DNA from: Solitalea lacus | Lineage (GTDB): Bacteria > Bacteroidota > Bacteroidia > Sphingobacteriales > Sphingobacteriaceae | Assembly (NCBI RefSeq): GCF_022014595.1 | Contig: NZ_CP091740.1 | Span: 868,001-932,000, forward strand | Length of the DNA: 64,000 nucleotides | Direction of reading: 5' to 3' | Part shown: one piece after another, positions 5,948 through 53,309 of the stretch | Position numbering within the stretch: position 1 is the first letter of the stretch | How the letters are laid out: the number at the start of each line of letters is the position of its first letter | Notes under the pieces: generated by a model | Databases searched by the model: none | Told to the model about the DNA's origin: nothing | What the model saw: the letters and a program-made list of their open reading frames with translations, nothing else | Made by a program: the position numbers and the translations under genes

Positions 5948-5991
5948 CATGAAAAGATGGTGTATTGTGTAAGCGGAAATTAACCAATCAT

Positions 5992-6118: not shown

Positions 6119-6126
6119 TATTTTTG
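6119..6126 (+). promoter_or_regulatory. -7 promoter element for maeB
   Basis: TATTTTTG matches TAnnTTTG, 25 bp before the maeB ATG. The upstream DNA is very AT-rich and no clear TTTG is seen at -33. Confidence 0.45.
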
Positions 6127-6151
6127 GCGATTCACTAAATAAAATATATAA

Positions 6152-8431
6152 ATGAGTAAGACCACTCGTAAACAGGATGCACTTGATTATCACGCATTAG
6201 GACGCCCTGGAAAAGTAGAAGTTGTTCCTACCAAAGCAACAAATTCTCAACGCGACTTATCATTAGCGTACTCTCCCGGAGTTGCCGAACCATGCCTTAG
6301 AATTGCCGAAAATAAAGACGACGTTTATAAATATACTGCAAAAGGAAACTTAGTTGCCGTAATCAGCAACGGTACGGCCGTGCTTGGTTTAGGTAATATT
6401 GGGCCTGAAGCCGGAAAGCCAGTAATGGAAGGTAAAGGGGTTTTGTTTAAGATTTTTGCTGATATTGATGTCTTTGATATAGAGCTGAATGTTACCGATG
6501 TGGATGAGTTTGTCCGCACTGTAAAGGCGCTTGAACCAACATTCGGTGGGGTTAACCTTGAGGATATTAAAGCTCCAGAGTGCTTTGAAATTGAGCGTCG
6601 CTTAAAGGAAGAAATGAATATTCCTGTAATGCATGACGATCAGCACGGTACTGCTATTATTTCTGCTGCTGCATTATTAAATGCACTAGAGTTGCAAAAT
6701 AAGAAGATTGAGAATGTTAAGATTGTGGTTGGTGGTGCAGGCGCTGCTGCAATGTCATGTACTCGTTTATATGTATCATTAGGTGCACGTAAAGAGAACA
6801 TTGTAATGCTCGATAGTAAAGGGGTTATTCGTTCTGACCGTGATGGGTTGGATGCTTCTAAGAAAGAATTTGCTACTGAACGCCGTGATGTTAAAGATTT
6901 AGCTGAAGCCATGGTGAACGCCGATGTGTTCATTGGTTTATCTGCTGCAGATACTGTATCTGCTGATATGTTAAAGACGATGGCTGCTAATGCCATTGTA
7001 TTTGCGATGGCTAACCCTGATCCTGAAATTGGTTATGAACTTGCAACTGCAACCCGTAACGATATTATCATGGCTACTGGTCGTTCTGATTATCCTAACC
7101 AGGTAAACAATGTATTGGGCTTCCCTTACATTTTCCGTGGAGCGTTGGACGTTCAGTCGACTCAAATTAATGAGGAAATGAAGCTTGCTGCAGTAAAAGC
7201 CATTGCAGAGCTTGCAAAGAAACCTGTTCCTGAAGCAGTAAATCTTGCGTATAATCAAAGTAATATTGTTTTTGGTAAAGACTATATCATTCCTAAACCT
7301 TTGGATATGCGTTTGATTACGCATGTGGCTCCTGCAGTAGCTAAAGCCGCAATGGAATCGGGTGTAGCTCGTAAGCCAATTACTGATTGGGATGCTTATA
7401 TTGAAGGTCTGAAAAAACGTCTTGGCTTAGACGATAAACTGATGCGCAGCATTTCGCAGCGAGCTAAAACAACTCCGAAAAGAGTTGTATTTGCCGAGGC
7501 CGATAACTATAAAATGTTGAAGGCTGCACAAATTGTAAAGGATGATAACATTGCAATTCCTATTCTATTAGGCGATATAGAAAAAATCAACGCGCTTATT
7601 GAACAGCATAATCTTGATTTAGCAGGTACTACTATTATCGATCCTTTTAAAGAGCCGAAAACTTTACAGAAATACGCTGCGATTCTTTACAAGAAACGTC
7701 AGCGTAGAGGAGTGAGCATGAGCGATGCTCTTAAGCTGGTTCGCGACCGTAACTATTTTGGTTCAATTATGGTTGAGTTAGGCGAAGCTGATGCAATGAT
7801 TTCCGGTTTGACTAAAAGCTATAAAAATGTGGTGAAACCTGCATTGGAAGTTATTGGTACTCGTCCTGGTGTGAAAAAAGTTGCCGGTATGTACATGATG
7901 CTTTCAAAAAGAGGACCTATCTTCTTTGCTGATACTACTGTGAACTTAGATCCAACACCGTCAGAGATTGTAGATATCACTTTGTTAGTTAGCGAGGCAG
8001 TAGAAACCTTTAATATTAAGCCTCGAGTGGCATTGTTGTCTTACTCAAACTTTGGATCTAGTGCTGGTGCCTCTGCTGTGAAAATGAGGGAGGCTGTTTC
8101 GATTTTACACAAAGAACATCCTAGTGTATTAGTTGACGGTGAAGTGCAGGCCAATTTTGCGATTAACACTGAAATGATGCAGGCTAATTATCCATTCTCA
8201 TGTTTGGCTGATGGTCCTGCTAATACGTTAATTTTTCCTAACCTTGAGTCGGGTAATATTGCATACAAGTTATTGCAGGAAGTTGGTGGAGCAGAGGCTG
8301 TGGGGCCTATTCTACTTGGTTTGAACAAACCGGTGCATGTTTTGCAGATGGATAGTTCTGTTCGTGAAATTGTAAACATGGTTACAGTAGCAGTTGTTGA
8401 TGCTCAGCAACGCGAAAAACTTGCCCAATAG
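6152..8431 (+). CDS. maeB: NADP-dependent malic enzyme fused to a phosphotransacetylase-like domain
   Basis: 759 residues in two parts. Residues 1 to about 420 are malic enzyme: Y40 in YSPGVAEP, K95 in MEGKG, metal-binding E137-D138 and D162-D163 (HDDQHGTA), the Rossmann loop [12 protein letters not shown] and NPDPEIG. Residues from about 445 form a phosphate acetyltransferase-like domain ([42 protein letters not shown]). Malic enzyme decarboxylates malate to pyruvate with NADPH formation; in MaeB proteins the C-terminal domain is usually regulatory, sensing acetyl-CoA, and not catalytic. It is monocistronic, with its own -7 element and a long terminator hairpin. Confidence 0.95.
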
Positions 8432-8452
8432 GCAATTTTTTACACCATAGAT

Positions 8453-8504
8453 AAGTCCGGTGGTTAATTATATTTTATTTAATTAACCACCGGATTTGTT
8501 TTTA
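8453..8504 (+). terminator. Terminator after maeB, long hairpin
   Basis: AAGTCCGGTGGTTAATTA pairs with TAATTAACCACCGGATTT with one mismatch and a loop of about ten bases, followed by a T-rich stretch. The 18-bp stem starts 22 bp after the maeB stop. Confidence 0.8.
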
Positions 8505-8576
8505 TAAAACATGGCTTGAAAGTAACCTTTAGTTATATTTTTGAGTATAATTATCAGATTATTTGTGCATTAACAT

Positions 8577-8584
8577 TATGTTTG
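8577..8584 (+). promoter_or_regulatory. Possible -7 element for ruvA
   Basis: TATGTTTG matches TAnnTTTG and lies 25 bp before the ruvA ATG. No TTTG is found at the right -33 spacing. Confidence 0.35.
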
Positions 8585-8609
8585 GCACTATGTTTTTAAT
8601 CACATTCGT

Positions 8610-9209
8610 ATGATTGCATATATACACGGAAAAGTAACCTTCATCTGCCCAACATATGTACTTATGGAGACTGCAGGGGTTGGCTATCAGATTCATATAT
8701 CATTAAATACCTATTCATTAATTGCTGATTCAATTAATAATGGCAATGCTCTTTTAAAGCTGCATACCTATCTAAGTATTAAGGAAGATGCCCATACTTT
8801 GTATGGTTTTGCAGAAGAGGGTGAGAAGAGGTTGTTTGTTCATTTGATTTCAGTTTCTGGAGTTGGGCCAAACACAGCTCGCATGATGCTTTCTTCTATT
8901 ACACCTGTTGAAATTGAGCAGGCAATTATTAAAGGAGATGTTCCTCAAATTCAGCGTATAAAAGGAATTGGGCCTAAATCAGCGCAAAGGCTGGTTTTGG
9001 AACTTCAGGATAAGCTTAAAAAAGAAATAGGTAATTCACTTATTCAAATACCACAAAATAATAGTATCAAAGATGAAGCATTATCTGCTTTGGTAATGCT
9101 AGGGTTTGTAAAAAGTGCTGCAGAAAAAGTTATTGACAATGTTCTGAAAAAATCAACAAATGGTATGACTGTTGAAGGGTTGATTAAAGAGTCATTGAAA
9201 AATCTTTGA
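8610..9209 (+). CDS. ruvA: Holliday junction DNA helicase subunit RuvA
   Basis: 199 residues, the usual RuvA length. An N-terminal OB fold (MIAYIHGKVTFI, LYGFAEEGEKRLF) is followed by two helix-hairpin-helix motifs (SVSGVGPNTARMM and IKGIGPKSAQRLV) and a C-terminal domain that contacts RuvB (DEALSALVMLGF). RuvA tetramers hold Holliday junctions while RuvB drives branch migration in recombination repair. ruvB is not adjacent. sprA follows after 43 bp; from memory, this ruvA-sprA order recurs in Bacteroidota, and it supports both calls. Start is the ATG giving the canonical MIAYIHG N-terminus. Confidence 0.96.
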   Translation: MIAYIHGKVTFICPTYVLMETAGVGYQIHISLNTYSLIADSINNGNALLKLHTYLSIKEDAHTLYGFAEEGEKRLFVHLISVSGVGPNTARMMLSSITPVEIEQAIIKGDVPQIQRIKGIGPKSAQRLVLELQDKLKKEIGNSLIQIPQNNSIKDEALSALVMLGFVKSAAEKVIDNVLKKSTNGMTVEGLIKESLKNL

Positions 9210-9252
9210 TAATTTTTATTTTAATGACCTATTATCCAATAATTAAACGAAT

Positions 9253-12200
9253 TTGAAACCAAAATTTACTATTGTCTTTTTAGCGGGGTTGTTGTTTGTT
9301 TTTCTTTGTGGGTGTTGTAGCAATGCTCAAGGGCAAGCTATTTCATCAACTACTAAAGCTGACACGAACAATTTGCGATACCCTTTTAAGGAAAGAAGAG
9401 ACGTTTTAAATCGTTATAATTCTATTATTGGTTTAAAAGATCCTTCAAATGTTTCCCGACGTGTTGAATATGATCCTAAAACCAATACTTATGAGATCAT
9501 AGAAACAATTGGCGGAAGGACGTATCGTTCTCCTCAAAAATTAACATTTGAGGAATATAAAAGATATACGTTAGAAGAAGCAAAGCGAAGTTACTGGCAG
9601 CAAAAAACGGGGCAAAGTAATGAAATTGTGCAGAACAGAGGCTTGCTCCCTAAGCTAACTTTTCAAAGCAAAACGTTTAACGATTTATTCGGTGGAAGTT
9701 TTATTGATATTCGTCCACAGGGTTTTGCTGAAGTTAATCTTTCTACCCGATTCAATAAAAATGAAAATCCTTTATTCAATACCCGTCAGCGCCAGCAAGC
9801 CAGTTTGGATTTTGATGAGCGGCTTCAATTAAACTTAACCGGACAGATCGGTGAAAAGTTGAAGATAAATACCAATTTTAATACGCAAGCTCAGTTTGAT
9901 TTTGAGAATCAGATGAAGTTTGAGTATACCGGTAAAGAAGATGAGATTGTACGGAAGGTTGAAGTAGGTAATGTGAGCATGCCCATTGCCGGAACATTGA
10001 TCAACGGAAGCCAAAGCCTTTTTGGTATTAAAACTCAAATGCAGTTTGGTCGTCTTGGAGTAACCGGACTATTCTCGCAACAGCGAAGCGAGATGAAGGA
10101 GATCAATATTACCAATGGTGCGCAAGAGAGTGAGTTCATGATTCAGGTGGATAACTACGAAGCCAACAAACATTATTTCTTAGCCACCTATTTTCGTGAT
10201 AAGTACAATGAAGCATTATCACGTCCTCCTATCGTCAATTCAGGGGTGGTAATTAATAAAATTGAAGTTTGGGTAACCAATCGAACAAACAATAATAGCG
10301 ACTCAAGGGATATACTTGCGTTTTTGGATTTGGGTGAGAATAAACCTTATAATTCAACTTTGTTCCTAAGTGGGCAGGCGTTAAATCCATCAGGTTTTAA
10401 TGACGGAGTAACACCTCAGTCTAATAATTTATTAACTACGATTCCTTCGCAGTTAAGGTTTACTAATGACAACACCGTAAATGCATACTTTCAAGGTACA
10501 GGAGGTAGCGACAATTATGCAAAACTTACCTATGCTCGTAAACTTAACGACAGAGAGTATAAGTTTGATCCTGTGCTAGGTTATATTTCCCTAAACCAGC
10601 CTTTAAATAACGACGAAGTATTGGCGGTTGCTTACCGTTACACATTAAATGGTGTTCAGTACCAAGTGGGTGAATTTTCAACGGATGTTCCGCAAGACCC
10701 TTCAAAACCAGTTGTGCTTTATGTAAAACTGCTGAAGAATGAATTGCTGAAAACGTATTTGCCAACCTGGGATCTGATGATGAAAAACATTTACAGCTTA
10801 AATGCTTATCAGGTTAGTCAGGATGGCTTTAGATTAAATGTAATTCGACTGGATGAAAAATCAGGTGTAGAACAACCTGTAATGCCTGAAGGATTAAATA
10901 CCAAGGGCAAGCCATACATTCAGTTAGCCAATCTGGACCGGATAAATAATCAACAAAATAATGAACCAGATGGAGTTTTTGACTTTATAAACGGTGTTAC
11001 CATTGATCCTTTGAACGGTCGGATTGTATTTCCGGTAGTAGAGCCTTTTGGTAAAGATTTGGCTTCCAAGTTTTCTCCAACAGAAGTTGACCTAATAAGA
11101 AAGTATGTTTATCAACCTTTATATGATTCAACCCGATTTGTTGCTCAGCAGTTTCCATCGTTAAACAGATATTATTTAAAGGGTATTTACAAATCAAGCA
11201 CCAGCTCTGAGTTTAACCTTAATGCCATTAATGTGCCACAGGGTTCGGTACTATTAATGGCTGGTCCAACCCAAATGGTGGAAGGAGTGGATTTTACGGT
11301 TGATTATAATTTAGGTAGAGTGAAGATTTTAAATGAAGCATTGTTGAATTCCGGTATGCCAATTAAGATCAAGCTTGAAAGTACGGAGTTGTTTGGTATT
11401 CAATCGCGGACAATGATGGGGGCAAGATTCGATTATAATGTAAACGATAAGCTGAATCTTGGGAGTACAATCCTAAGCCTAAGTGAACGACCATTAACAC
11501 AAAAAGTAAATATTGGCGACGAGTCAATTTCTAATACCATTTATGGTTTTGATGCCAACTTTAGGTCTGAATCAAAGCTCTTAACCAGGCTGGTCGATAA
11601 GTTGCCATTCATTTCAACTAAAGAGCCATCATCAATTAGTTTTAACGGAGAGTTTGCTCAGTTTATGCCGGGTCATGCCAGGGCCTTGAATATTGCCGGC
11701 GACAAAGGTGGGGTGTCTTATCTGGATGATTTTGAAACCACCCGTTCAATAATTGATCTTAAGAATTTTAATAACTGGTTTATCTCGGGTACACCACAGT
11801 TGTTTCCTGAAGCTCAGTTTAGCAACGATTTAAGCTATGGTTATAATCGTTCGTTATTAGCTTTTTATACTATTGACCCAATCTTTTATTCTATCGGAAA
11901 CAGCACTACACCTTCAAATATTAAAAATAACAAAGAAGAGCAGTCCAACCCTTACGTGCGTGAAGTAACCGAACAAGAGGTGTTCCCTAATAAACAAGCA
12001 GTAACTGGAACACCTTTGCTTTTACCAACTCTCGACGTTGCTTTCTACCCTAAAAAACGTGGTCCGTATAACTATACAACAACAGGAGTTTTGCCTGATG
12101 GAACATTAAGTAACCCGCAAAGTCGTTGGGGGGGGATGTTTAGAAAGTTGGAGCAGAATGATTTTCAGGCGCTAAATGTTGAATACATTGAGTTTTGGGT

Positions 12201-15200
12201 GATGGACCCCTTCTTGGGGAATCCTAACTCTAAAGGAGGTGATCTCTATTTTAACTTAGGGAACATTTCAGAAGATATTTTAAAGGATGGTTCTAAAAGT
12301 GTTGAAAATGCCTTGCCTGCTGGTGGCGACCCTAATTTGGTAACTTCTACCGTCTGGGGTAATGTGGGTAAAAATCAGCCTGTTACTCAGGCTTTTGATA
12401 ATGACCCATCAGCTCGTCAACGTCAGGATGTGGGATTGGATGGTTTAAGTTCAGAACAAGAAAGTGCTTTCTTTCAAGTTTATTTAAATCAGTTGCGTAG
12501 TGTACTTCCTGCAGGTTCTTCTGCATTAGAACAGGCTGAAAAAGACCCTTCCTCTGATGATTTTGTGTATTTCCGTGGACCGGCACTTGATGCTCAGAAT
12601 GCATTGATTCTTCAGCGCTACAGCCGTTTTAACGGTACCGAAAGTAACTCAAAAACCAGTTCGCAGGCACAGCAGATTGTTGGAATTGAAAATGCGGCAT
12701 CAACTCCTAACCCAGATGGAGAAGATATTAACCGCGACAACAACATGAGTGCTTCTGAAGAATATTTTCAGTATAAAGTTTCCATTCGTCAACAGGATTT
12801 GGTTATTGGCCAAAACTTCCTGAATGATAAAGTGGTAACTAACGTGAAATTGCAAAATGGAAAAGTGCAACCTACAACATGGTATCAATTCCGAATTCCT
12901 ATCACTGCGTTTCAATCACGGGTAGGTAATATCCAGGACTTCAGGTCTATTCGTTTCATTCGTATGTTCATGACAGGTTTCACTGATTCGGTGATTATGC
13001 GTTTTGCCAAACTGCAATTGGTAAGAGGCGAATGGAAGGAGTTTAATCCTGACAATAACCCTTTGATGGTTTTGCGTGAACAAGGACTGCCTGCTTCAAC
13101 TACAGATAATTCCAACCTTAATTTAGCTGCAATCAATCTTGAAGAAAATGGTAATCGTGAACCCATTCCATATGTGATTCCTCCAGGTATTGAGCAACAA
13201 CAAGTTCAAGGTGTTTATCGTGAAAATGTGCGCCTGAATGAGCAATCATTATTGTTAAGGGTTGATAATCTGAGTGATGGATTTTCCCGTGCTTCTTATA
13301 AAACAATCAATTTTGACTTTAGATCCTATAAGCGTCTTAAAATGTTTGTCCATGCTGAAGGAGGGCTTTCTTCTGGAGACGTTAGGGCTATTGTTCGTTT
13401 GGGAACTGATTATGACCAAAATTATTACGAGTACGAAGTTCCATTAACAGTAACACCTCCAGGTTCTAAAAATCCGGATGTGATTTGGCCTTCTGATAAT
13501 AACCTTGACATTGCCTTTGAAACGTTACAGAAGCTTAAGCGTGACAGGAATGCCTTGAACTTACCGATTAATGAATTATATACCATTGTAGAGGGACGTT
13601 ATCGAATTTCAATAAAGGGACAGCCTGATTTGAGTAAAACAAGAGTGCTGATGCTGGGTGTAAGAAATCCATACCAGGGGAATAATTCGGGCTTTGATGA
13701 TGGTTTACCTAAGTCTGCTGAACTTTGGTTCGACGAATTGCGCATAGCCGAGTTTAAGGAAGAAGGTGGTATGGCCATGACTGGTTTAATGAATGCTAAG
13801 TTGGCTGATTTTGCCACCGTGAGCTTGGCTGGAAGCATGAGCACCTTTGGATTCGGTTCGTTGGATAGAAAAGTAAGCCAGATAAACAGAAGTCAGAATG
13901 CTACTTACGATGTTTCATCGAACATAGAGTTAGGGAAGTTCTTTCCAAAGAAAGTTAATTTCTCAATTCCAATGTATATCTCCTATGCTCGTGATACCAA
14001 AAAGCCTGAGTACAGTCCAATTTCTCCAGATCTTTTGCTAAATGATGTATTAAATTCATATAGAGGAGATAATAGAGAAAGAAGGGATTCGCTAGCAAGT
14101 GTAGTGAATGATGTTACTACGCGTAGAAGTATCAACTTTACCAATGTGCGAAAAAATAGAAACCCCGGAGATAAGGTTAATTTCTATGATTTTGAAAACT
14201 TCAACTTTACCTTTGCCCATACTGAATTCAGAAATCGTTCTTATACAGTTCAAAATAACGAGGTACGGACTTATAAGGCGATAATTGCATATAACTTCCA
14301 AAAGGAATCGAAAAACTTTAAACCTTTCGGGAAAGTATTTAAGAAAGGCTGGAGCTTAATTAGAGATCTCAATATGAACCTGGCGCCTCAGGTTATTGAC
14401 GTGCAGTTTATGTTGGATCGTTATTACAGCGAGAATACGTTGAGGGCCACTGAAGAATCATCATATTTTATTGCGCCTAGTACGTATAACAAATCCTATT
14501 ACCTTACAGGAATTTATAATGTTGGATGGGACATGAGTTCGGCCTTAAGGTTCGATTACAGTGCTCGAAGTTTGTCATCAGTTGATGAGCCTTCGGGTGC
14601 TATTACTCCTCAGGTCAAAGATTCTATTCAAAGTAACCTGTTTAAATTTGGTCGCCCGGTAGAGTTTAGTCAAAGGCTTGGTTTAACCTATAACGTCCCG
14701 CTTAATCGCATTAAACCCCTTTCTTGGACCTCGTTTAATGTTCGTTATGCAGTTGACTATAACTGGCGGTCAGAACCCCTGTCGACCATGAAGGTTGAAA
14801 GTGAACGATTTGGTAATACCATTCAAAATGCACGAACAGTTGGGTTTACAGGTCAGTTAAATTTTGCACAGCTATTTGGTAAAATCAGATTCTTAAGAGA
14901 TCCGGATCCCAAAGACTTTGAAGCCGGCGACATTTACCGAGGTTTTTTAACCATGTTAAAAAATGCTAATGGTACCTATACTTTGAGTGATGGGACATTT
15001 TTGCCAGGATATTTACCGCAAACTAGTGTTTTCGGTTCTAATCCGGGTCTAGGATTTATGATGGGAAGCCAGAAGGATATCCGTTACGAGGTGGCTAGTA
15101 AGGGACAACTTACTACTTACGCTAGCATGAACAGCTTATACATGCAAAATCGTAAAGAAGATTTAAGTTACAGAGTAATTGTTGAGCCGATTAAGGATTT

Positions 15201-16290
15201 TAGGATTGAGCTTTCGGGTACCTGGGGTAAACAAATGAATGATCAGTCGAATTTTAGGTATGATGATTTAACAGGTACCTTCCAGGAGTTTAGTCCTGTA
15301 AGAACAGGAATGTTCACTATTAGTACCATTGCATTAAATACTGCATTCGAAACAGAGAATAATATTGATCACATTTCTTCAACCTTTACACAATTTGATC
15401 AAAGCCGTAAGGTGATTTCGGAACGTCTGGGCAGCGCTAATGTAGATAATTCCATTGGAAAGGATGCTCAAGGATATGCTGACGGGTATGGTCGTACGCA
15501 ACAAGATGTGGTGGTAAATGCGTTTTTATCGGCCTATTTACGCAAGGATGCTAATTCGATGTCGCTTAACGCATTTCCTAGTATTCCTTTGCCTAACTGG
15601 CGTGTAACATATAACGGATTGACAAAGATTCCTTTTGTTTCAGAACTGTTCTCGTCAATCAATATTAATCATTCGTATAAATCGGTTTACACAATCACCA
15701 GTTTTACAACCTTGATTAATTATGCGGTGGATGCAAACGGTAACGTAACCAGTAGAAGTGCCCTTTCCGATGACAATGGCAATTTCAATTTCTTGCCTGA
15801 ATACCAAATGGGTTTTGTAACCTTGTCAGAAGATTTTTTGCCATTATTGGGTATGGACATGAAGTTTAAAAACAACATGACTGCCAATTTTGAGTTTAGA
15901 AAAAGTCGTTTGTTGAGCTTTAGTTTGGCCAATACTCAAATGTCGCAGATGAAAGATAATCAGGTTACGTTTGGGTTGGGTTATCGCACGCAGAAATTTA
16001 AACTGCCATTCAGAGTGGGTAATTTGCATACAACTAATAATGATTTGAACTTTAGGATGGATTTTAGTTTACGTGGAAATAGAACTATTATTTATCAGTT
16101 GGATAACACCGTCGCACAAGTTGCAGGAGGAACCACCACCCTTTCAGTACGCCCTTCTGTCGACTATGTAATTAACCAACGATTCAATTTTAGATTATAC
16201 GTTGATAGAAACGTGACTAAGCCCGAAACTTCGAATACCTATAAAACTTCTTATACCAATGTTGGAGTTGGGTTAAGACTTACATTATAG
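9253..16290 (+). CDS. sprA: SprA, outer-membrane translocon of the type IX secretion system
   Basis: 2345 residues, close to the roughly 2400 of the Flavobacterium SprA whose structure is known as a giant 36-strand beta barrel. A signal peptide ends near residue 28. The rest is beta-rich with repeated SprA-type segments (for example LNLTGQIGEKLKINTNFNTQ near 195, and similar alternating strands in the last 700 residues). SprA is the pore through which T9SS cargo, including gliding adhesins and surface enzymes, crosses the outer membrane. The start must be TTG: the frame is closed by TAA at 9244 and no Met occurs early enough to keep the signal peptide. It is flanked by ruvA and gcvH, an arrangement I recall from other Bacteroidota. 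Other T9SS genes are not in this window. Confidence 0.96.
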   Translation: MKPKFTIVFLAGLLFVFLCGCCSNAQGQAISSTTKADTNNLRYPFKERRDVLNRYNSIIGLKDPSNVSRRVEYDPKTNTYEIIETIGGRTYRSPQKLTFEEYKRYTLEEAKRSYWQQKTGQSNEIVQNRGLLPKLTFQSKTFNDLFGGSFIDIRPQGFAEVNLSTRFNKNENPLFNTRQRQQASLDFDERLQLNLTGQIGEKLKINTNFNTQAQFDFENQMKFEYTGKEDEIVRKVEVGNVSMPIAGTLINGSQSLFGIKTQMQFGRLGVTGLFSQQRSEMKEINITNGAQESEFMIQVDNYEANKHYFLATYFRDKYNEALSRPPIVNSGVVINKIEVWVTNRTNNNSDSRDILAFLDLGENKPYNSTLFLSGQALNPSGFNDGVTPQSNNLLTTIPSQLRFTNDNTVNAYFQGTGGSDNYAKLTYARKLNDREYKFDPVLGYISLNQPLNNDEVLAVAYRYTLNGVQYQVGEFSTDVPQDPSKPVVLYVKLLKNELLKTYLPTWDLMMKNIYSLNAYQVSQDGFRLNVIRLDEKSGVEQPVMPEGLNTKGKPYIQLANLDRINNQQNNEPDGVFDFINGVTIDPLNGRIVFPVVEPFGKDLASKFSPTEVDLIRKYVYQPLYDSTRFVAQQFPSLNRYYLKGIYKSSTSSEFNLNAINVPQGSVLLMAGPTQMVEGVDFTVDYNLGRVKILNEALLNSGMPIKIKLESTELFGIQSRTMMGARFDYNVNDKLNLGSTILSLSERPLTQKVNIGDESISNTIYGFDANFRSESKLLTRLVDKLPFISTKEPSSISFNGEFAQFMPGHARALNIAGDKGGVSYLDDFETTRSIIDLKNFNNWFISGTPQLFPEAQFSNDLSYGYNRSLLAFYTIDPIFYSIGNSTTPSNIKNNKEEQSNPYVREVTEQEVFPNKQAVTGTPLLLPTLDVAFYPKKRGPYNYTTTGVLPDGTLSNPQSRWGGMFRKLEQNDFQALNVEYIEFWVMDPFLGNPNSKGGDLYFNLGNISEDILKDGSKSVENALPAGGDPNLVTSTVWGNVGKNQPVTQAFDNDPSARQRQDVGLDGLSSEQESAFFQVYLNQLRSVLPAGSSALEQAEKDPSSDDFVYFRGPALDAQNALILQRYSRFNGTESNSKTSSQAQQIVGIENAASTPNPDGEDINRDNNMSASEEYFQYKVSIRQQDLVIGQNFLNDKVVTNVKLQNGKVQPTTWYQFRIPITAFQSRVGNIQDFRSIRFIRMFMTGFTDSVIMRFAKLQLVRGEWKEFNPDNNPLMVLREQGLPASTTDNSNLNLAAINLEENGNREPIPYVIPPGIEQQQVQGVYRENVRLNEQSLLLRVDNLSDGFSRASYKTINFDFRSYKRLKMFVHAEGGLSSGDVRAIVRLGTDYDQNYYEYEVPLTVTPPGSKNPDVIWPSDNNLDIAFETLQKLKRDRNALNLPINELYTIVEGRYRISIKGQPDLSKTRVLMLGVRNPYQGNNSGFDDGLPKSAELWFDELRIAEFKEEGGMAMTGLMNAKLADFATVSLAGSMSTFGFGSLDRKVSQINRSQNATYDVSSNIELGKFFPKKVNFSIPMYISYARDTKKPEYSPISPDLLLNDVLNSYRGDNRERRDSLASVVNDVTTRRSINFTNVRKNRNPGDKVNFYDFENFNFTFAHTEFRNRSYTVQNNEVRTYKAIIAYNFQKESKNFKPFGKVFKKGWSLIRDLNMNLAPQVIDVQFMLDRYYSENTLRATEESSYFIAPSTYNKSYYLTGIYNVGWDMSSALRFDYSARSLSSVDEPSGAITPQVKDSIQSNLFKFGRPVEFSQRLGLTYNVPLNRIKPLSWTSFNVRYAVDYNWRSEPLSTMKVESERFGNTIQNARTVGFTGQLNFAQLFGKIRFLRDPDPKDFEAGDIYRGFLTMLKNANGTYTLSDGTFLPGYLPQTSVFGSNPGLGFMMGSQKDIRYEVASKGQLTTYASMNSLYMQNRKEDLSYRVIVEPIKDFRIELSGTWGKQMNDQSNFRYDDLTGTFQEFSPVRTGMFTISTIALNTAFETENNIDHISSTFTQFDQSRKVISERLGSANVDNSIGKDAQGYADGYGRTQQDVVVNAFLSAYLRKDANSMSLNAFPSIPLPNWRVTYNGLTKIPFVSELFSSININHSYKSVYTITSFTTLINYAVDANGNVTSRSALSDDNGNFNFLPEYQMGFVTLSEDFLPLLGMDMKFKNNMTANFEFRKSRLLSFSLANTQMSQMKDNQVTFGLGYRTQKFKLPFRVGNLHTTNNDLNFRMDFSLRGNRTIIYQLDNTVAQVAGGTTTLSVRPSVDYVINQRFNFRLYVDRNVTKPETSNTYKTSYTNVGVGLRLTL

Positions 16291-16314
16291 GTTTATTTTT
16301 TAAAAAAAGAACTG

Positions 16315-45269: not shown

Positions 45270-45890
45270 ATGAGAGAAGAAAACCCAAATAAGCGTCTTG
45301 AAATGTTTTCTGATGGTGTTTTTGCCATTGCAATTACATTACTCATTATTGAAATAAAAGTTCCGGCGCTCAACTTGATGGGTTCCACCAGTGATGTTTG
45401 GAATGCTACTATCCATCTTTGGCCGTCCTTCTTTGCGCTTTTTCTGAGTTTCATCCTTATTTTTATTAGTTGGTACGGGCATCATGTATTGTTTGATGCC
45501 CTCGATAAAGCTTCCGACCGGTTTCTGTTTGCCAGTGGTTTTTTTCTGCTAACCGTAGTAATACTTCCATTTCCTACCGCTTTCATGGCCGAATACCTTA
45601 ACACACTTTATGCTCAACCTGCTAATGTATTCTATAGCTTTTGTTGCCTGGTGCATAATTTGGGATGGCGACTATTACTTAATAGTACTAAAAAACCGAA
45701 ACAGCTTGCAAAATCACCAGAGCATATACAAAAAATTAATGAGGCAATGAGGAGTAACCGAATGGGCACTATTGCAAGCGTCGCAATTTTGGTATTGTCA
45801 TGGTGGTTCCCTTATATAGCCTTGATCATTAGTCTTATTTTATGGAGTTTTTGGATATATGTTTCCTCTAAAATTAAAAGGAAATTCTAA
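45270..45890 (+). CDS. TMEM175 (DUF1211) family potassium channel-like protein
   Basis: 206 residues with six hydrophobic helices. The N-terminus carries the diagnostic helix-1 motif RLEMFSDGVFAIAITLLIIE, where the FSDGVFAIA segment lines the pore in TMEM175 channels. Prokaryotic members form tetrameric cation channels with modest K+ selectivity. Length and helix count match bacterial homologues, so it appears intact. Its 5' neighbour is a GNAT on the same strand 254 bp away, with no sign of cotranscription, and a terminator follows at 46055. The physiological role in bacteria is not established. Confidence 0.88.
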   Translation: MREENPNKRLEMFSDGVFAIAITLLIIEIKVPALNLMGSTSDVWNATIHLWPSFFALFLSFILIFISWYGHHVLFDALDKASDRFLFASGFFLLTVVILPFPTAFMAEYLNTLYAQPANVFYSFCCLVHNLGWRLLLNSTKKPKQLAKSPEHIQKINEAMRSNRMGTIASVAILVLSWWFPYIALIISLILWSFWIYVSSKIKRKF

Positions 45891-46054
45891 GCGTAGAGAC
45901 GATAAGATAAACCCGATCGCCAATTTTGCTAACAGACATTTTGTAAAACAGCATGAAAAATAAAAAGAGCGGATAAGCTAACACAATACGCAGAAGGGAA
46001 GTTTAAAAACCATTAATACAATACGACGGTACAATTTTCTTCGAGCCTTCAGCA

Positions 46055-46097
46055 AAAAGCCCCTGAAAATTGAACGAGCAATTTTCAGAGGCTTTTT
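46055..46097. terminator. Bidirectional terminator between the TMEM175 gene and the B12 operon
   Basis: AAAAGCCCCTGAAAATTG pairs with CAATTTTCAGAGGCTTTT (one mismatch, loop AACGAG), with A and T runs on both sides. It should end the B12 uptake transcript 19 bp after its last gene. Confidence 0.85.
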
Positions 46098-46115: not shown

Positions 46116-47045
46116 TTAGAAATTCAAATCTTCAATTCCTGCAATTTCGGTAGAAGTTTCGCCGAGCCAGCCGGCCTCTTGGTTAACGGCGGTATAAATC
46201 TTAATGAAATTAATTCCCGAAAGATTAACCGGTTGGCCATTCGCATCAACCGCCCATGCAATATCAAATGTGGCATCGGCATGTGTGTTGATTTGATTAT
46301 CTGCATAGCCCCAAGGGTAAGCCGGTAACACCCAGCTCTGTGCCACCGGATCAGGATTACTATCATATGCATTGTTTGGAATTTTAGTTCCTGTAAATGT
46401 AAGCTGACTGCCTGCCCACAGTGGATAGTAAGAAGCTTGCGTATGATAACTATTTCTTTTTATGAACCCTGAACCTCCTTGATTGTCGGTCCAAGCTACA
46501 TTGCCATTTAAGGGATTTGGCTTTGAATAGGTAATCTGGTAATTCTTAATCGTGCCTGGTTTATAATACTCACTACCGGCCAGCTCGTACCAGGTATCAT
46601 CAGGCAACCCATTACCATTGGCATCATAAGCAACCATTACAATGCCTGGTTCCGCATTATTGGCAAATGCATTAGTGTAAACCTTAAAATCGCGGGCGTT
46701 AGCCACATTGGAAATGGTGTGATCAAAACCTACAATAAGGTAACCGCCATATCCGCCTAAACAAACCAGCCCGTTTGTTTTGCCTACTAATGACGTAGCC
46801 ACCTTTGCTGCCATTGTTTGCGCGTTATCTCCGCTAGCGTAAGCAGGCAGTGTGTTGATAAACTGACCTGGAGCCGGGAGATACTCAAAAACCTGTGTGA
46901 TGTATTTTGAAGTTCCAATCAAGGCATTGGTTTCCCTAGCTTCCGGTTGTTTTAAATTAGATTCTTTAAAATCAACTGTTTCGTTCTCCTTGCATCCGGC
47001 AAGAAGAACCGCTGCCATGCTGGTAATTGTAAATAGTTTTTTCAT
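46116..47045 (-). CDS. Surface lipoprotein, third gene of the B12 uptake operon
   Basis: 309 residues: lipoprotein signal (VLLAGC) followed by KENETVDF, an acidic stretch typical of surface-exported Bacteroidota lipoproteins. The mature part is beta-rich with GLVCLGGYGGYLIVGFDHTI, a Ca-binding-like loop DANGNGLPDDTWYEL, and W/Y-rich strands. Homologues are annotated only as cell surface protein, often beside DUF5074 proteins, as here. It lies 37 bp downstream of the BtuG-like gene in the riboswitch-controlled operon, so a role in cobalamin capture is a fair inference; Bacteroides use several surface B12-binding lipoproteins. It could also be a structural accessory. Confidence 0.78.
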   Translation of the reverse strand: MKKLFTITSMAAVLLAGCKENETVDFKESNLKQPEARETNALIGTSKYITQVFEYLPAPGQFINTLPAYASGDNAQTMAAKVATSLVGKTNGLVCLGGYGGYLIVGFDHTISNVANARDFKVYTNAFANNAEPGIVMVAYDANGNGLPDDTWYELAGSEYYKPGTIKNYQITYSKPNPLNGNVAWTDNQGGSGFIKRNSYHTQASYYPLWAGSQLTFTGTKIPNNAYDSNPDPVAQSWVLPAYPWGYADNQINTHADATFDIAWAVDANGQPVNLSGINFIKIYTAVNQEAGWLGETSTEIAGIEDLNF

Positions 47046-47082
47046 TAGTTAGGATTGTATAGTTAGTAGGATAAGGTTGTAT

Positions 47083-48180
47083 TTACTGCTTTTTGGGCTT
47101 TTGTACAAACACCACATTGTTAGGGTTTAGCCCGGCCTGGAACTTAAACTTTAGCTTGCCTTCTTTGGAGAAACAATAGACGTCGCCGGTTGTGGTAAAG
47201 TCGTAAACATCAGTTATGTATACATCTCCGTTAGATGGATTTACATCAATGCCATAAGGTGTAGTGATTTTTGTTTCGTCTGTTATAAAGTTTTCTGTAA
47301 CAATTTCTTCGGTCTTCACATTTAACAATTTAAAGCTTGCTTGCTGGGTAGTAAAGTTGTAGTTGTACAGATAAGCTAAATCTCCGTTAATGGTAAAGTT
47401 GAGTACTTCGAGCCCCTCGAATACTTTTTTCACCTGATCAGTTTTGCTGTCAATCGCCTGGAACGTGCAATGAATATCACCATAATCCCCCCTTGAAACC
47501 ACGTATACATCACCGTAATCGTCAGCCTGAATGGTATAAGGATTTACTTGAACACTAATTTTTTTAAGCTCGGTAAATGAAGGAATATCAATTACAGATA
47601 CAGTATTGTCATAATTTGGAAAATCTAATCCGCCTGAATTACTCACATACAGTTTGTTGTTGGCTACACAAATTCCATCAGGCTGGCGACCGGCTTTAAC
47701 AAACTTGTCGAACTGCAGGGTAGCTGTATCGAGGCGGCCAACTGTACCATCAAACGAACATACATAAGCCTTGCCTGCATGAAAAGCGATATACCTCGGC
47801 TGGCGCGGTACTCCTTGTTCATCAAGCATCGAAATCTGCTTTAGCGACTTTCCGGTGTTAGGATCAATCACTTCCAGTTGACTTGAAACGTTTACCACAG
47901 CATACATTTTTGATCCATAGATCTTCAAATCATTCCCTGTATCTCCTAAACCACGTTTGTTTTTCTGCTCGAAATAATCGGTTTTGGCCACTCCTGTTAA
48001 AGTGTCAATGCCCGTAAGGGTGGTATTGTTCATGTTAAATAGACCTTCGTTTAATACGTATAAGCTTGCCTGAAAAGGTTGAGGAGCTGGATCGTCATTT
48101 TTTCGGCAACCTGCAAAAAAGATGGCACCGGCCAGTGCTAATGATTTTAGTCCGATTGCTGTTAATTGGTGTTTTGTCAT
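47083..48180 (-). CDS. BtuG-like YncE-type beta-propeller lipoprotein (DUF5074)
   Basis: 365 residues with a lipoprotein signal (IFFAGC) and the acidic export motif RKNDDPAP after the Cys, so it is expected on the cell surface. The body is a beta-propeller built from repeated blades such as LYVLNEGLFNMNN, KMYAVVNVSSQLEVIDPNTG, KAYVCSFDGTVGRLD and KLYVSNSGG. Bacteroides BtuG proteins share this fold and bind cobalamin with extreme affinity before handing it to BtuB. Location directly after a riboswitch-controlled btuB (15 bp gap) makes the BtuG role very likely, although the binding residues cannot be checked by eye. Confidence 0.85.
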   Translation of the reverse strand: MTKHQLTAIGLKSLALAGAIFFAGCRKNDDPAPQPFQASLYVLNEGLFNMNNTTLTGIDTLTGVAKTDYFEQKNKRGLGDTGNDLKIYGSKMYAVVNVSSQLEVIDPNTGKSLKQISMLDEQGVPRQPRYIAFHAGKAYVCSFDGTVGRLDTATLQFDKFVKAGRQPDGICVANNKLYVSNSGGLDFPNYDNTVSVIDIPSFTELKKISVQVNPYTIQADDYGDVYVVSRGDYGDIHCTFQAIDSKTDQVKKVFEGLEVLNFTINGDLAYLYNYNFTTQQASFKLLNVKTEEIVTENFITDETKITTPYGIDVNPSNGDVYITDVYDFTTTGDVYCFSKEGKLKFKFQAGLNPNNVVFVQKPKKQ

Positions 48181-48195
48181 ATACTTGTTTTACTT

Positions 48196-50244
48196 TTAAA
48201 ATTTCAGTGAATAGGATACACGCAAAGAGCGGCCGGGCATGGGAAAGTTCCGCACAACTTCGTATTGTGTATTAAGTATGTTTAGTACTTCTAGGCTTAG
48301 TTTATTTTTTAGTTTATATACTTTGAATGCTTTAGAAAGAGTAAGCCCATGCTCTGAATAAGCCGATAGGTAGTTTTGAGGAATGTTTTCATTAAGTATA
48401 TACCTGCTGCCGGCAAAAAGAAGATTATAGGCCAAATCAACTGGCGGGGTGCTCAAACTGAAGATTGCCGAGCCTGAATGCTTAGGCGTATAAGCTAGCT
48501 GATCTCCATAGGTTTTCTCCTCAGGGTTAGTCATGTCTAACACTTGCTGAAAAGTATAGGTGCCTTCAATGGCTGCAAAAACCGAATTGCCTATTTTCTT
48601 ACCTGCTTTTACACTGAGATCAATGCCATTAATGTAAACAAGGCCAATATTCCTCATCGTCCAGATAAACAGGTTTTTCGTTGGCTTGGCTACTATTTTA
48701 TCCCTCACCTTGTTGTGGTATGCATCCAATGAAGAGGACAGGTATGAGCCATCCGTCGCAGTAAAGTAATTATAAGAAAGTCCCAGGTTGAACTGATGTG
48801 CATTCTCAGGTTTAAGTTTGGTGTTGCCTATTTGCGTGTAAAACAGGTCATTGAATGTAGGCATCCGGAATATATCCTTGTAAAAGAAACGGAAGCTCAG
48901 CTTATTGTTTGCAAAGGGCTGATAACTTACAAGTACAGAAGGTGAAAAACGAAAATGATTTTTAGGAGTATCTCCTTGTTTTACAGCTTCATACACGGCA
49001 GAAGACAGAACTCCCAATTGAATATTAAAACGATTACTTGTCCATTTTGAGTTAAGGGCCGTAAGCCAGGTAAAGCGAGACGGGTAGGCAAACTGGTGGA
49101 GGTCGGCGTCCATGCTGTTGTAAAAAACATCACTTGAAAGACCAACCTGAAATTCGTTCGACGCTTTATATACTGCGGCGGCCGAGCCATAAACTTCGTT
49201 TTGGTGATAGTTGTTGTCTTGCACGTCTACTATCACGCCCAGGTAATCGGGGTTGAGATAGCGCAAGTAGCTTTTTGCATACTTTACGTTAAAAAGGGCT
49301 TCAATTTTAGCTGAGAAAGATTTTTCGTATTTAGATTGAACAAAAAAGGTTTTATCCCACAAACGTTCGGATGAATGCGTATTGTACAGAATAGTAGCTC
49401 CAGGCAGACCTCGTTCGCTTTGAAAGTAATAGATTTTGGAACTGAGTTTTTCCTTTTCATTGAGGGTTATAAAGAAGTTTTCTTCTAAACGGAGGGTTAC
49501 TATATCGGTATTAGACCTTTTCTCACTGGAAACACTGTCATCTTTTGAACCGCTACCTCCATAGTGTAAAACAAATGGGTACTTTCCGTTTGCATTTTGA
49601 AATTCAGATAGAAATGAATTGGAAACTTTATCACTAAGTTTATTGTGAATAGTAATAGATGGTGAAATTAATCCAAATGACCCGACCTTGAGCAGGCCAT
49701 TCATTGCCATGTTTTCCCCTGATGTAAAAACCGGAGCTGTAGTATTTACGGTTAATAAACTGGCCGATGAAAATGACCTGGCGGTGTTTAAAATACTTTC
49801 AGGATTGCCAATTGTGAGTGAAATCTGATCGACATTGTTTACAGAGAATTTACCTAAATCAATTTGTCCGGTTTGATTGTCGGTAATGGTAATTCCATCA
49901 TAGCAAAAACCTGTGTGATTGGCACCTAATCCGCGTACCGAAACGGTTTTAAGGCCACCGATGCCCCCGTAGTCTTTTACGGTAACACCGGCAAAATGCT
50001 TAACCACATCTGATAATTGAAACGCTTGAATTTGCTGCAGACTGTAGCGGTTAATTGTTTGCACGGGCGCCATACCGGGCTGGGTCGGCAACGCTTTACT
50101 TGTTATCTCCACCTCTTTTAGGCGTTTAAGCGTATCGGTTTGGCCAAGGGCCTCCTTGCTGGAGACGCCGGTAAAAAAGCACAAAAAAAGAATATGTGGA
50201 TATAATCTTCCCAATGAAGAATACCCATTAACTGGTAATGACAT
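48196..50244 (-). CDS. btuB: TonB-dependent cobalamin receptor BtuB
   Basis: 682 residues: signal peptide, a plug domain at about 60-170 (ALPTQPGMAPVQTINRYSLQ, then VKDYGGIGGLKTVSVRGLGANHTGFCYDG), and a beta barrel to the end (GRSLRVSYSLKF, terminal Phe as usual for BAM-inserted barrels). The short length without a CarboxypepD domain fits BtuB and not SusC. Substrate assignment rests mainly on the cobalamin riboswitch in its leader and the BtuG-like gene 15 bp downstream. It imports B12 across the outer membrane using TonB energy. btuCDF are not in this window. Confidence 0.9.
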   Translation of the reverse strand: MSLPVNGYSSLGRLYPHILFLCFFTGVSSKEALGQTDTLKRLKEVEITSKALPTQPGMAPVQTINRYSLQQIQAFQLSDVVKHFAGVTVKDYGGIGGLKTVSVRGLGANHTGFCYDGITITDNQTGQIDLGKFSVNNVDQISLTIGNPESILNTARSFSSASLLTVNTTAPVFTSGENMAMNGLLKVGSFGLISPSITIHNKLSDKVSNSFLSEFQNANGKYPFVLHYGGSGSKDDSVSSEKRSNTDIVTLRLEENFFITLNEKEKLSSKIYYFQSERGLPGATILYNTHSSERLWDKTFFVQSKYEKSFSAKIEALFNVKYAKSYLRYLNPDYLGVIVDVQDNNYHQNEVYGSAAAVYKASNEFQVGLSSDVFYNSMDADLHQFAYPSRFTWLTALNSKWTSNRFNIQLGVLSSAVYEAVKQGDTPKNHFRFSPSVLVSYQPFANNKLSFRFFYKDIFRMPTFNDLFYTQIGNTKLKPENAHQFNLGLSYNYFTATDGSYLSSSLDAYHNKVRDKIVAKPTKNLFIWTMRNIGLVYINGIDLSVKAGKKIGNSVFAAIEGTYTFQQVLDMTNPEEKTYGDQLAYTPKHSGSAIFSLSTPPVDLAYNLLFAGSRYILNENIPQNYLSAYSEHGLTLSKAFKVYKLKNKLSLEVLNILNTQYEVVRNFPMPGRSLRVSYSLKF

Positions 50245-50369
50245 GCTAGCTATGTTGATGTTTAATCAAATAGCCTCCATAGAATAAAATGAAAACCAAT
50301 GGTTAACCTTTAATTGGCCAACGTTAGGATTCAAGCTTCAGTCCACGAAAGCTTAAACTGTATGCATAC

Positions 50370-50538
50370 ATGGCAGGTCTTCTGACTTATCCCAATGTTG
50401 AGCGCCTTCCCATCTTATCGACAGTGGCATTAGTGTTTGCTCAACATCTTTTTAAGGACTTACAGCAGCGGGTCTGTTCAGGATTTTCACCTGATTCCCT
50501 TTTAATCAACAAGCATTGAACAACGCTTGTTAAACCAT
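50370..50538 (-). promoter_or_regulatory. Cobalamin (AdoCbl) riboswitch
   Basis: On the minus strand the conserved cobalamin riboswitch blocks occur in order: GGGAATCAGGTGAAAATCC, ACAGACCCGCTGCTGTAAG, the B12 box GCCACTG (50422-50428), GGGAAGGC (50404-50411) and GTCAGAAGACCTGCC (50372-50386). Order and spacing are standard. It lies between a TATCTTTG promoter box and btuB, leaving about 125 nt before the start codon for an expression platform. High intracellular B12 should repress the btuB-btuG-lipoprotein operon. Confidence 0.95.
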
Positions 50539-50546
50539 AGCGGGGC

Positions 50547-50554
50547 CAAAGATA
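50547..50554 (-). promoter_or_regulatory. -7 promoter element for the B12 uptake operon
   Basis: On the minus strand this reads TATCTTTG, just upstream of the riboswitch. Transcription would start near 50540, so the aptamer occupies the very 5' end of the RNA. Confidence 0.65.
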
Positions 50555-51062: not shown

Positions 51063-53309
51063 ATGAAAAAAATAGGCTCAGTAATAATTTCAAAAAATCC
51101 ATTAATTGCTGTTGTATTATTGACTGCTTTTTTTGTTGGGAAGGTAAAAGCACAAGATAAATCCGCAGAAACGATTATCAGTAAATACCGGAATGTGTTT
51201 GAAATGCCTCCACAAAAAACGCCTTCTAATGTGGCGGTGGATGCACCTTTGCTTGGAAATGGTTCTTGTGCGGCAGCCCTTGCCGGTCCGCCCGAACAAC
51301 AAACCTATTACCTGTCCCGTAATGATTTCTGGAGATTGAAAACGGGTTATGATCAGGCATTTCCTGCTGTGTTAGGCAAGCTGCAGATCAATATACCGGC
51401 ATTAAAGCAGGCTCATTACAGGGTAGAACAGGATATCTATAATGCCGCTACGATTTCTAATTTCAGCAAAGCAGATACTTCCGTTATTATTCAGTCGACT
51501 CTGATGGCTACTCAAGATCTGTTGCTGGTTGAAATTACCAACACCGGAGCCGCTACTATAAACGGTAGTTTGCTATTGCTATTACCTCAAAAGGATCAGG
51601 TTTCCAATCAGGAAAGATTTCCCGACACACTGGCCTTTGGAAGTGATGCCAGTGGTGTTCAGTGGATTCAAAGAGGGTTTGTTAAGGATGTAACTATAAA
51701 AAGTATGGCAGCCGCTGCGCTGAAGATAGTTGGAAAAAACAGTGATCGATTTACGCTTGCCTCAGGTCAGAAAATTACGGTTGTCTGTTCATTGTCCAGC
51801 AATTTTAAATCTGGTGATTGTCTTCGTACAGTGTGTCAGTACGTACAGCAAATTACATTACAGGAGATCAAAGAGATACAAACTGGGCATGTAAAATGGT
51901 GGCATCGTTTCTGGAATGAAAGCTATGTAGATATAGCCGATTCCGTTATTGAGCACCAATATTATCGTTCTCAGTATAACATGGCTTCGTGCAGTCGCGA
52001 CTCCAAATTTCCTCCTGGAATTTTTGGCACTTGGATTACTAAGGAAACTCCAGCATGGAATGGCGACTACCATCTCAATTACAATTACAGTGCTCCTTTT
52101 TATGCTTTGCATTCTTCAAATCATTTGCAGCAACTATTGCCTTATGAGGCTCCGCTGCTGGATTTCATGGAACGCGGAAGGTATTATTCTACCTATATGA
52201 CAGATGTACCTGATGGCGTGCTGTATCCTGTTGGTATTGGTCCGCTTGGTATTGAAACTACCCGAGTAAAGGAGCCTACTGGCGGCAGGGGAGCTGCTGT
52301 AGAAGAGGAAGGTTTGTTTCTGGGACAAAAGAGTAACGCTGCCTATTGTGTAACGAATTTATCCATGACCTTTTATCGGACTCATGATGCTGAGTATGCA
52401 AAGCGTGTATATCCGTTCATCAGGTCTGTAGCTGTATTTTGGCAGCACTATCTTCAAAAGGAAAATGACCGTTACATTATTTTAAACGATGCGATCCATG
52501 AAGGAACGATCGGAACTATGAATCCGATTCTTTCACTGGGATTGGTTCCAATGGTGTTTAGTACTGCAATTGACATGAGTATCTTGTTGAATACAGATAA
52601 AGACTTGCGGAGTGATTGGCAATTTAAAATGAATCATGTAGCAAAATTCAGCACGCAAATTCGTAATGGTAAAACAGTTTTCAGATACAGTGAGAGAGGA
52701 ACAGATTGGTGGCCCGATAATACATTAGGTATTCAGCATATTTATCCTGCCGGCCTAATTGGATTAGAAAGCGACAGCACTACATTACAGATAGCAAAAA
52801 ATACCATTGATGAATTGCATCGTTGGAAAGATTTTAATGGAACGAACAGTTTTTATCCGGCTGCGGTCAGGGTTGGTTATAATGCTGATAGCATTTTGGC
52901 AAATATACACAACTACAGTTTACGTATCTACCCCAATGGTTTTCAAAAGAATAACCCACATGGAATAGAAAATTGCAGTACGGTTCCTAATACCATTAAC
53001 GAAATGCTTTGCATGTCCAACCAGCAGGTGTTGCGTGTTTTTAAAGTATGGCCTCATAAAATAAATGCTTCCTTTTCGAATATTAGAAGTGAAGGAGCTT
53101 TTTTAGTTTCATCAACTTTAAAGGATCAGTCAGTTCAGTTTGTAAAAATTATAAGTGAGAAAGGTAGAGTCTGTATTTTGGAAAATCCATGGCCAGACAA
53201 GGTTTTGCTAGTAAAAAGTAATAAAAGAAGAACGCAGCAATTAAATGGTGAAAGAATACAGCTGCCTACTTTACCTGGGGAAACATTAACGATAACGGCC
53301 GTGGAATAA
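51063..53309 (+). CDS. Putative (alpha/alpha)6-barrel glycoside hydrolase, GH95-like
   Basis: 748 residues with a signal peptide to about residue 31 (GKVKAQ). The N-terminal part holds a beta-sandwich like that of GH95/GH65-type enzymes (APLLGNGSCAAALAGPPEQQ, YYLSRNDFWR, FPAVLGKLQINIPAL). The middle is a helical barrel (WWHRFWNESYVDIAD, GNGD-like WNGDYHLNYNYSAP, ILNDAIHEGTIGTMNPILSLGLV), and a C-terminal beta domain follows (WPHKINASFSNIRSEGAFLVS). GH95 enzymes are mostly alpha-L-fucosidases or galactosidases, but the sequence is too divergent for a substrate. It is not in a PUL: no SusC/SusD pair or regulator is adjacent. Confidence 0.7.
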   Translation: MKKIGSVIISKNPLIAVVLLTAFFVGKVKAQDKSAETIISKYRNVFEMPPQKTPSNVAVDAPLLGNGSCAAALAGPPEQQTYYLSRNDFWRLKTGYDQAFPAVLGKLQINIPALKQAHYRVEQDIYNAATISNFSKADTSVIIQSTLMATQDLLLVEITNTGAATINGSLLLLLPQKDQVSNQERFPDTLAFGSDASGVQWIQRGFVKDVTIKSMAAAALKIVGKNSDRFTLASGQKITVVCSLSSNFKSGDCLRTVCQYVQQITLQEIKEIQTGHVKWWHRFWNESYVDIADSVIEHQYYRSQYNMASCSRDSKFPPGIFGTWITKETPAWNGDYHLNYNYSAPFYALHSSNHLQQLLPYEAPLLDFMERGRYYSTYMTDVPDGVLYPVGIGPLGIETTRVKEPTGGRGAAVEEEGLFLGQKSNAAYCVTNLSMTFYRTHDAEYAKRVYPFIRSVAVFWQHYLQKENDRYIILNDAIHEGTIGTMNPILSLGLVPMVFSTAIDMSILLNTDKDLRSDWQFKMNHVAKFSTQIRNGKTVFRYSERGTDWWPDNTLGIQHIYPAGLIGLESDSTTLQIAKNTIDELHRWKDFNGTNSFYPAAVRVGYNADSILANIHNYSLRIYPNGFQKNNPHGIENCSTVPNTINEMLCMSNQQVLRVFKVWPHKINASFSNIRSEGAFLVSSTLKDQSVQFVKIISEKGRVCILENPWPDKVLLVKSNKRRTQQLNGERIQLPTLPGETLTITAVE

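Follow-up and report, generated by a model that had tools for sequence, protein, structure and literature searches.

Genes and features of the locus

The 64,000-nt stretch of Solitalea lacus DNA analysed here (contig NZ_CP091740.1, positions 868,001 to 932,000; hereafter the window) carries on its minus strand three intact open reading frames (ORFs), btuB, btuG and btuH, behind a cobalamin riboswitch. Sequence comparisons make it very likely that this segment is a B12-repressed operon for corrinoid capture at the outer membrane. Read from 50554 to 46054, the order is TATCTTTG box, RF00174 riboswitch, btuB, btuG, btuH and terminator, with gaps of 15 bp between btuB and btuG and 37 bp between btuG and btuH. 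The features are as follows.

50547..50554, minus strand: predicted promoter box TATCTTTG, TAnnTTTG type, its first bases inside the Rfam match
50355..50554, minus strand: cobalamin riboswitch aptamer (RF00174; 101.7 bits, E 2.7e-24, model positions 1-189 of 189)
50245..50354, minus strand: leader from the aptamer to the btuB start, with a weak terminator-like hairpin at 50322-50302
48196..50244, minus strand: btuB, by homology a TonB-dependent outer-membrane corrinoid transporter of the BtuB1 type (682 aa)
47083..48180, minus strand: btuG, predicted DUF5074 propeller surface lipoprotein of the BtuG1/BtuGH G-domain type (365 aa)
46116..47045, minus strand: btuH, a single H domain without an Ig/PKD or propeller part (309 aa)
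46054..46097, minus strand: predicted intrinsic terminator hairpin (-31.4 kcal/mol, z -5.9)

An earlier note on this DNA had described a complete B12 surface-capture operon consisting of a promoter, a cobalamin riboswitch, three closely spaced minus-strand genes (btuB, a BtuG-like propeller and a third surface lipoprotein) and a terminator after the last gene, with acidic export signals on both lipoproteins. All of these elements were recovered, and the gene coordinates agreed. The third lipoprotein was assigned to a known kind, and the descriptions of the operon as complete and as a special, compact test case did not hold, as detailed below.

Identity of BtuB and BtuG

The best solved relative of the window BtuB by far was B. 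thetaiotaomicron BtuB1 (8blw_A, 1e-181), and other Bacteroides BtuB chains matched at 2e-22 to 5e-20. Two domains scored over their cut-offs, TonB_dep_Rec (PF00593, 2.5e-28) and Plug (PF07715, 7.7e-13). The aromatic residue of loop EL8 is Tyr in BtuB3, Phe in BtuB2 and Trp in BtuB1 (PMC10404256). Trp528 of the window BtuB falls at this position and aligns with the BtuB1 Trp, as placed from the same source. The mapping used the Tyr538 equivalence only, which agrees with the Phe of BtuB2 and the Trp of BtuB1; the published numbering of the loop tip (Ser524-Leu531) did not match the chain numbering.

The window BtuG matched residues 49-377 of 8blw_B (BtuG1) at 3e-95 and scored 38.4 bits (1e-9) for PF16819 (DUF5074), the cut-off of which is 27.2 bits. 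A lipoprotein signal was read by eye as FFAGC with Cys25, followed by the acidic stretch RKNDD. By homology, the protein most likely caps BtuB and binds corrinoid.

Identity of the third lipoprotein

In the third lipoprotein no Pfam or NCBIfam family scored over its cut-off. A novel family was considered and dismissed, as the PDB sequence search placed the protein in BtuH. It matched residues 378-661 of 8blw_B, the H domain of BtuG1/BtuGH, at 9e-79 and BtuH2 (7biz) at 1e-56, and the ~270-residue BtuH domain was present. Given these two matches, the third lipoprotein is BtuH, a known kind of B12-binding lipoprotein, with its function here predicted. The BtuH class of B12-binding proteins was described in 2022 (PMC8941943), and BtuH2 binds B12 and aids fitness when B12 is scarce (PMC8941943, PMC12751083). 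The window BtuG and BtuH each align to separate halves of one BtuG1/BtuGH chain (8blw_B), a fusion of BtuG and BtuH domains that each bind cobalamin (PMC8941943, PMC12751083).

The B12 contacts of BtuH2 are Q333, N399, F401, H476, Y510, W511, W577 and L578 (PMC8941943), and the chain numbering fits all eight published residues with a single offset. Seven of the eight are kept in the window BtuH (Q61, N125, F127, H201, W238, W293 and L294). The lipoprotein signal, also read by eye, is VLLAGC with Cys18, followed by the acidic KENET. The signal supports the earlier reading of a third surface lipoprotein, but the protein is not an unassigned one.

Leader, promoter and terminator

The riboswitch match covered the full-length model, exceeded the gathering score of 31.5 bits and was the sole Rfam match at the gathering threshold in the window. 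The leader fold had a z of -3.3, and one of 100 shuffles was equally stable. The fold prediction pairs the transcript's 5' end with a segment immediately ahead of the btuB start codon.

The TAnnTTTG motif, which we take to be the Bacteroidota-type -7 promoter box, occurred in 15 of the 16 cobalamin riboswitch sites compared (70 nt around the aptamer start; L122, with its aptamer cut off, was left out), against 0.46 expected from the same loci. The TATCTTTG box at 50554-50547 is therefore not a mere chance match. At 14 of these 16 sites the box lay between -9 and +3 relative to the aptamer start, a position that puts the transcription start probably just inside the Rfam match. Sigma-70 sites of the general type were no more numerous in the region than in shuffles (12 versus 11.9), and no clear TTG -33 element was seen.

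The terminator hairpin begins about 18-19 bp past the btuH stop codon, and none of 200 shuffles was equally stable. The stem is preceded by an A-rich and followed by a T-rich stretch, and the scan lists it on the plus strand; it is possibly bidirectional, serving the convergent gene at 45270-45890 (plus strand) too. No link to B12 is evident for the divergent neighbour on the other side (51063-53309, plus strand), which encodes a GH95-like protein (PF22124, 1.2e-17).

Comparison with known systems

The closest solved relatives of all three window proteins come from B. thetaiotaomicron locus 1 (BtuB1 and BtuG1/BtuGH, BT_1490, 8blw), which like the window operon is controlled by a riboswitch. 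G and H are separate lipoproteins in the window, whereas locus 1 has the fused BtuG1/BtuGH; it also has BtuK1, BtuK2, BtuH1 and BtuJ1 (PMC12751083), which were not seen in the window operon. With BtuH2 (BT_1956, 7biz) the window protein shares the C-terminal B12-binding domain, but not the N-terminal PKD/Ig domains. The B-G-H order of the window recurs in Chitinophaga ginsengisegetis (L051), Chryseobacterium flavum (L088) and Bacteroides xylanisolvens (L112); the first and last of these were checked for a riboswitch, and both have one in front, as in the window. The BtuH proteins of C. flavum and B. xylanisolvens carry an N-terminal extension, unlike the single H domain of the window protein. 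Some of the loci with separate btuB, btuG and btuH have DUF4465 (BtuJ) or extra propeller genes downstream.

Proposed mechanism and alternatives

The operon is of a known kind and is itself ordinary. The steps proposed for it are modelled on work on B. thetaiotaomicron. When corrinoid is scarce, the riboswitch would permit expression of the operon, and B12 would repress it. BtuH and BtuG would present corrinoid-binding sites of high affinity on the outside of the cell, with BtuG acting as a lid over BtuB. As the lid closes, the BtuB loop EL8 (Trp528 here) would dislodge the vitamin from BtuG towards BtuB, and TonB energy would then carry it into the periplasm. BtuH, as a free lipoprotein not fused to BtuG, may gather the vitamin and transfer it transiently. 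The inner-membrane step would be encoded elsewhere and, judging from family searches, would not be BtuCD. In the published work, BtuG is a corrinoid-binding lid on BtuB whose closing lets EL8 dislodge the vitamin, and BtuH2 binds B12 near-irreversibly and forms no stable association with BtuBG (PMC10404256, PMC8941943, PMC12751083, PMC6143338). Nothing in the window sequences contradicts a mechanism of this type.

Several observations weigh against the corrinoid capture operon. The window BtuB scored far under the cut-offs of the NCBIfam equivalogs for BtuB (87.5 of 599.7 bits for TIGR01779, 60.8 of 836 bits for PRK10641), models that appear to be built on enterobacterial BtuB. BtuG2, in which the cavity residues are Trp194, Trp272 and Tyr316, is only a distant relative of the window BtuG (2.6e-20), and the eighth BtuH2 contact, Y510, is replaced by Ser237 in the window BtuH. 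Single folds of the leader gave no legible expression platform. BtuH is rare among relatives (4 of the 60 genomes in the relatives sample, or 3 of the 59 others; here and below, the window's own genome is among those counted in both the relatives and the phylum sample unless other genomes are specified). Finally, the genome has a further BtuB-like gene at a different riboswitch locus (L005, described below), so the window operon need not be the sole route.

The same rarity, which implies that BtuH is dispensable, would agree with a third lipoprotein that shares the BtuH fold but binds another ligand, e.g. a surface glycan, and only rides along in the operon; the BtuH2 structure has a modest likeness to alginate lyase (PMC8941943). 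We regard this as very improbable: the protein keeps seven of the eight B12 contacts, its closest solved relatives bind B12, and its gene lies behind the riboswitch in a recurrent neighbourhood with btuB and btuG. It also appears rather unlikely that the operon imports corrinoids with a preference for another cobamide or cobinamide over cobalamin. BtuG2 binds cobinamide as well (PMC10404256), and the second riboswitch locus has cobU, cobT and cobS, which stand for nucleotide-loop assembly from incomplete corrinoids; however, riboswitch class and binding residues do not discriminate between these ligands, and nothing favours a particular one.

Distribution and gene order

Loci in named genomes were collected with a profile of 13 BtuH domains, and the best-scoring 80 of 235 confirmed loci were kept; the proportions given here apply to those 80. 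Locus classes were assigned with profiles for B, G, H and DUF4465 (BtuJ; a single seed sequence). Separate neighbouring G and H genes were found at 60 loci and fused GH at 7, while 13 were classed as other, including loci cut by contig ends. As the split arrangement is this common, the window operon is no special test case. Plain B-G-H was the commonest order (48 loci, counting L102, which has a G-H gap of >300 bp and was classed as other) and occurred in many Bacteroidales and in Chitinophaga, Chryseobacterium, Arenibacter, Myroides and Dysgonomonas. A cobalamin riboswitch stood ahead of the operon or of the first btuH in all ten loci chosen from the 80, one of the aptamers being cut at the locus end.

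BtuG was present in 22 of the 60 genomes of the relatives sample, and BtuH in 12 of the 395 genomes of the phylum sample. Gene orders vary among the relatives with BtuH (B-G-H in G008, H-B-G in G017, propeller-H-B-G in G002), and a riboswitch heads all three loci. Neither BtuG nor BtuH turned up in our searches of the genus mates G001 and G003, while G002 has both. Horizontal gain of BtuG and BtuH is conceivable, but these data do not separate gain from loss.

Chitinophaga, Chryseobacterium, Pedobacter and Arenibacter are mainly non-gut genera. Since the system, known from gut Bacteroides, is intact in the window and in such genera, BtuB-BtuG-BtuH capture is probably not a gut speciality. Literature searches found no study of BtuB-BtuG-BtuH operons from genomes other than those of the gut. 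The closest work reports B12-binding DUF4465 proteins from a wide range of environments, with TonB receptors and PF16819 propellers as frequent neighbours (PMC13398666).

Tandem triplets of btuH-like genes were seen in Flavobacterium and others (L085, L103; G296:C23, G375:C19), with later copies scoring far lower on the BtuH profile.

Fusion history of G and H

The H tree comprised all 86 loci and the G tree 75 of them, no G domain having been found in 11. Nine rows carried the fused label, two of which (L025 and L054) are identical. The fused label required six changes on the G tree, five of them forced by well supported branches, and four on the H tree, all forced. Careful trees were built from 38 picked loci, leaving out near copies, the long branches L022, L024, L068, L084, L087, L102, L110 and L122, and some further loci. 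On these the label again changed six (G) and four (H) times, with five and three changes forced, and a single origin of the fusion was found in 0% of 200 bootstrap trees. Fused BtuGH is not one clade on either tree. Because the fused forms branch close to the tips with split ones around them, repeated fusion is the simpler reading, although change counts do not tell gain from loss.

In a clade of five rows with 100/100 support, the window BtuG was joined by the split G of L091 and the G domains of three fused BtuGH proteins. Such a clustering would be expected if the separate btuG and btuH of the window arose by splitting of an ancestral fused BtuGH gene. This origin is nevertheless improbable: separate G and H are the majority state among the best-scoring loci, the fused label changes repeatedly and is scattered near the tips, and the window BtuH is no nearer to the L054 fusion's H domain (51% identity) than to free BtuH at loci with both genes (up to 57%) or to BtuH of Gynurincola endophyticus (L048, 61%; no G was found in the fetched stretch of that locus). 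On a quick H tree the window BtuH stood apart from the fused group L025/L054/L083, and on the careful H tree it had no supported place. The window as a direct, unfused ancestor of BtuGH was likewise unsupported, as its BtuG points to BtuGH-type proteins and its BtuH does not. G and H therefore look like exchangeable modules that can be free or fused and have partly separate histories.

The inner-membrane step in the host genome

The operon covers the outer-membrane step only. It has no btuF, btuC or btuD, and no FecCD/BtuC permease was found in the genome, a single contig of 4.40 Mb rated 100% complete: PF01032 gave 0 matches at E <= 0.001, while the same search was positive in 13 of 14 control genomes. 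In this respect the earlier description of the operon as complete fails. FecCD spans iron and siderophore permeases as well as BtuC, and a FecCD match is not proof of BtuC. The genome encodes a single Peripla_BP_2 protein, in which no signal peptide was evident by eye. A MetH-type gene is present (PF02965 in a 1253-aa frame) and the MetE catalytic domain gave no match (PF01717, 0 in the genome), which fits a need for corrinoid. De novo corrin synthesis was judged by one family, GATase_3: CobB/CobQ-type synthesis was not evident, with one partial match over the cut-off (240-aa frame), in our reading too short for these enzymes, and one below it. In the relatives sample, 37 of 60 genomes combine a cobalamin riboswitch with the lack of any full-length FecCD match; the riboswitch scan used strict filters, and some weak matches were lost.

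The genome has a second riboswitch operon:

L005 (G000:C1:2816000-2835000), 5301-12680: BtuB-like receptor, DUF6580, cobU, DUF71, cobT, cobS, CobC-like phosphatase, sirtuin-like gene (the last two named by eye)

The DUF71 family has been linked to B12 salvage (PMC3541065). In a further locus, L004 (G000:C1:2249000-2268000), positions 5322-7129 hold a cobalamin riboswitch, an ORF with the MetE N-terminal domain only (291 aa) and then a PAS-domain ORF.

DUF6580 as a candidate importer

The inner-membrane step is the wider point raised by this locus, and DUF6580 (PF20221), a membrane-protein family frequent in cobalamin riboswitch operons, is a concrete candidate for it. We tentatively consider it possible that the btuB-btuG-btuH operon feeds a cell without BtuCD and that DUF6580 is a BtuCD-independent B12 importer used by many Bacteroidota. 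In the second riboswitch operon its gene directly follows that of the BtuB-like receptor. Across 60 genomes, 8 had DUF6580 together with full FecCD, 34 DUF6580 only, 14 FecCD only and 4 neither, an inverse distribution (Fisher p 2.7e-5, not corrected for kinship); this test counted the 22 genomes with full FecCD and dropped two with partial matches only, which would have made 24. Only three FecCD copies had a cobalamin riboswitch no more than 8 kb away (G013, G032 and G035), and their genomes have no DUF6580. A riboswitch on the same strand lay upstream of ten DUF6580 copies; for nine of these the distance was 1.5-2.1 kb, about the length of one BtuB gene.

The neighbourhoods of 42 DUF6580 loci were examined up to about 6 kb on each side. 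BtuB, BtuG, DUF71 or a cob gene was near in 17, and in an eighteenth at 8.7 kb; 4 had only a sirtuin-like gene close by, and 20 had none of these genes, although one of the latter (L138) has a riboswitch 1.5 kb upstream and several of them lie at contig ends. DUF6580 is also located behind btuB-G-H clusters, separated from them by one propeller-like ORF in a Dysgonomonadaceae genome (L115) and by two further ORFs in Pedobacter sp. Hv1 (L122); in Fermentimonas (L074) it comes after an H gene.

Against an importer count the roughly half of DUF6580 loci that are not near B12 genes, and the 11 loci lacking a riboswitch in the genome-wide list, none of which held one when scanned. The same applies to the eight genomes with both families and to the inclusion of iron permeases in FecCD. 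Structure prediction for three DUF6580 sequences gave a mean pLDDT of 43.9, too poor for a fold search; the DUF6580 profile had 0 matches among PDB sequences, and no ECF-family match was found in Pfam or NCBIfam. These results, too, speak against the importer. A word search of the literature collection used found no publication naming DUF6580. NCBI's name for proteins of this type is putative transport protein.

Two further observations concern DUF6580 genes. A second copy lies in L005 at 15789-16310 on the minus strand. In Pedobacter sp. Hv1 (L122, 218-12496), a riboswitch heads a run of one B, three G and two H genes, a propeller, a 436-aa ORF, DUF6580 and two genes named by eye, one sirtuin-like and the other DUF71-like.

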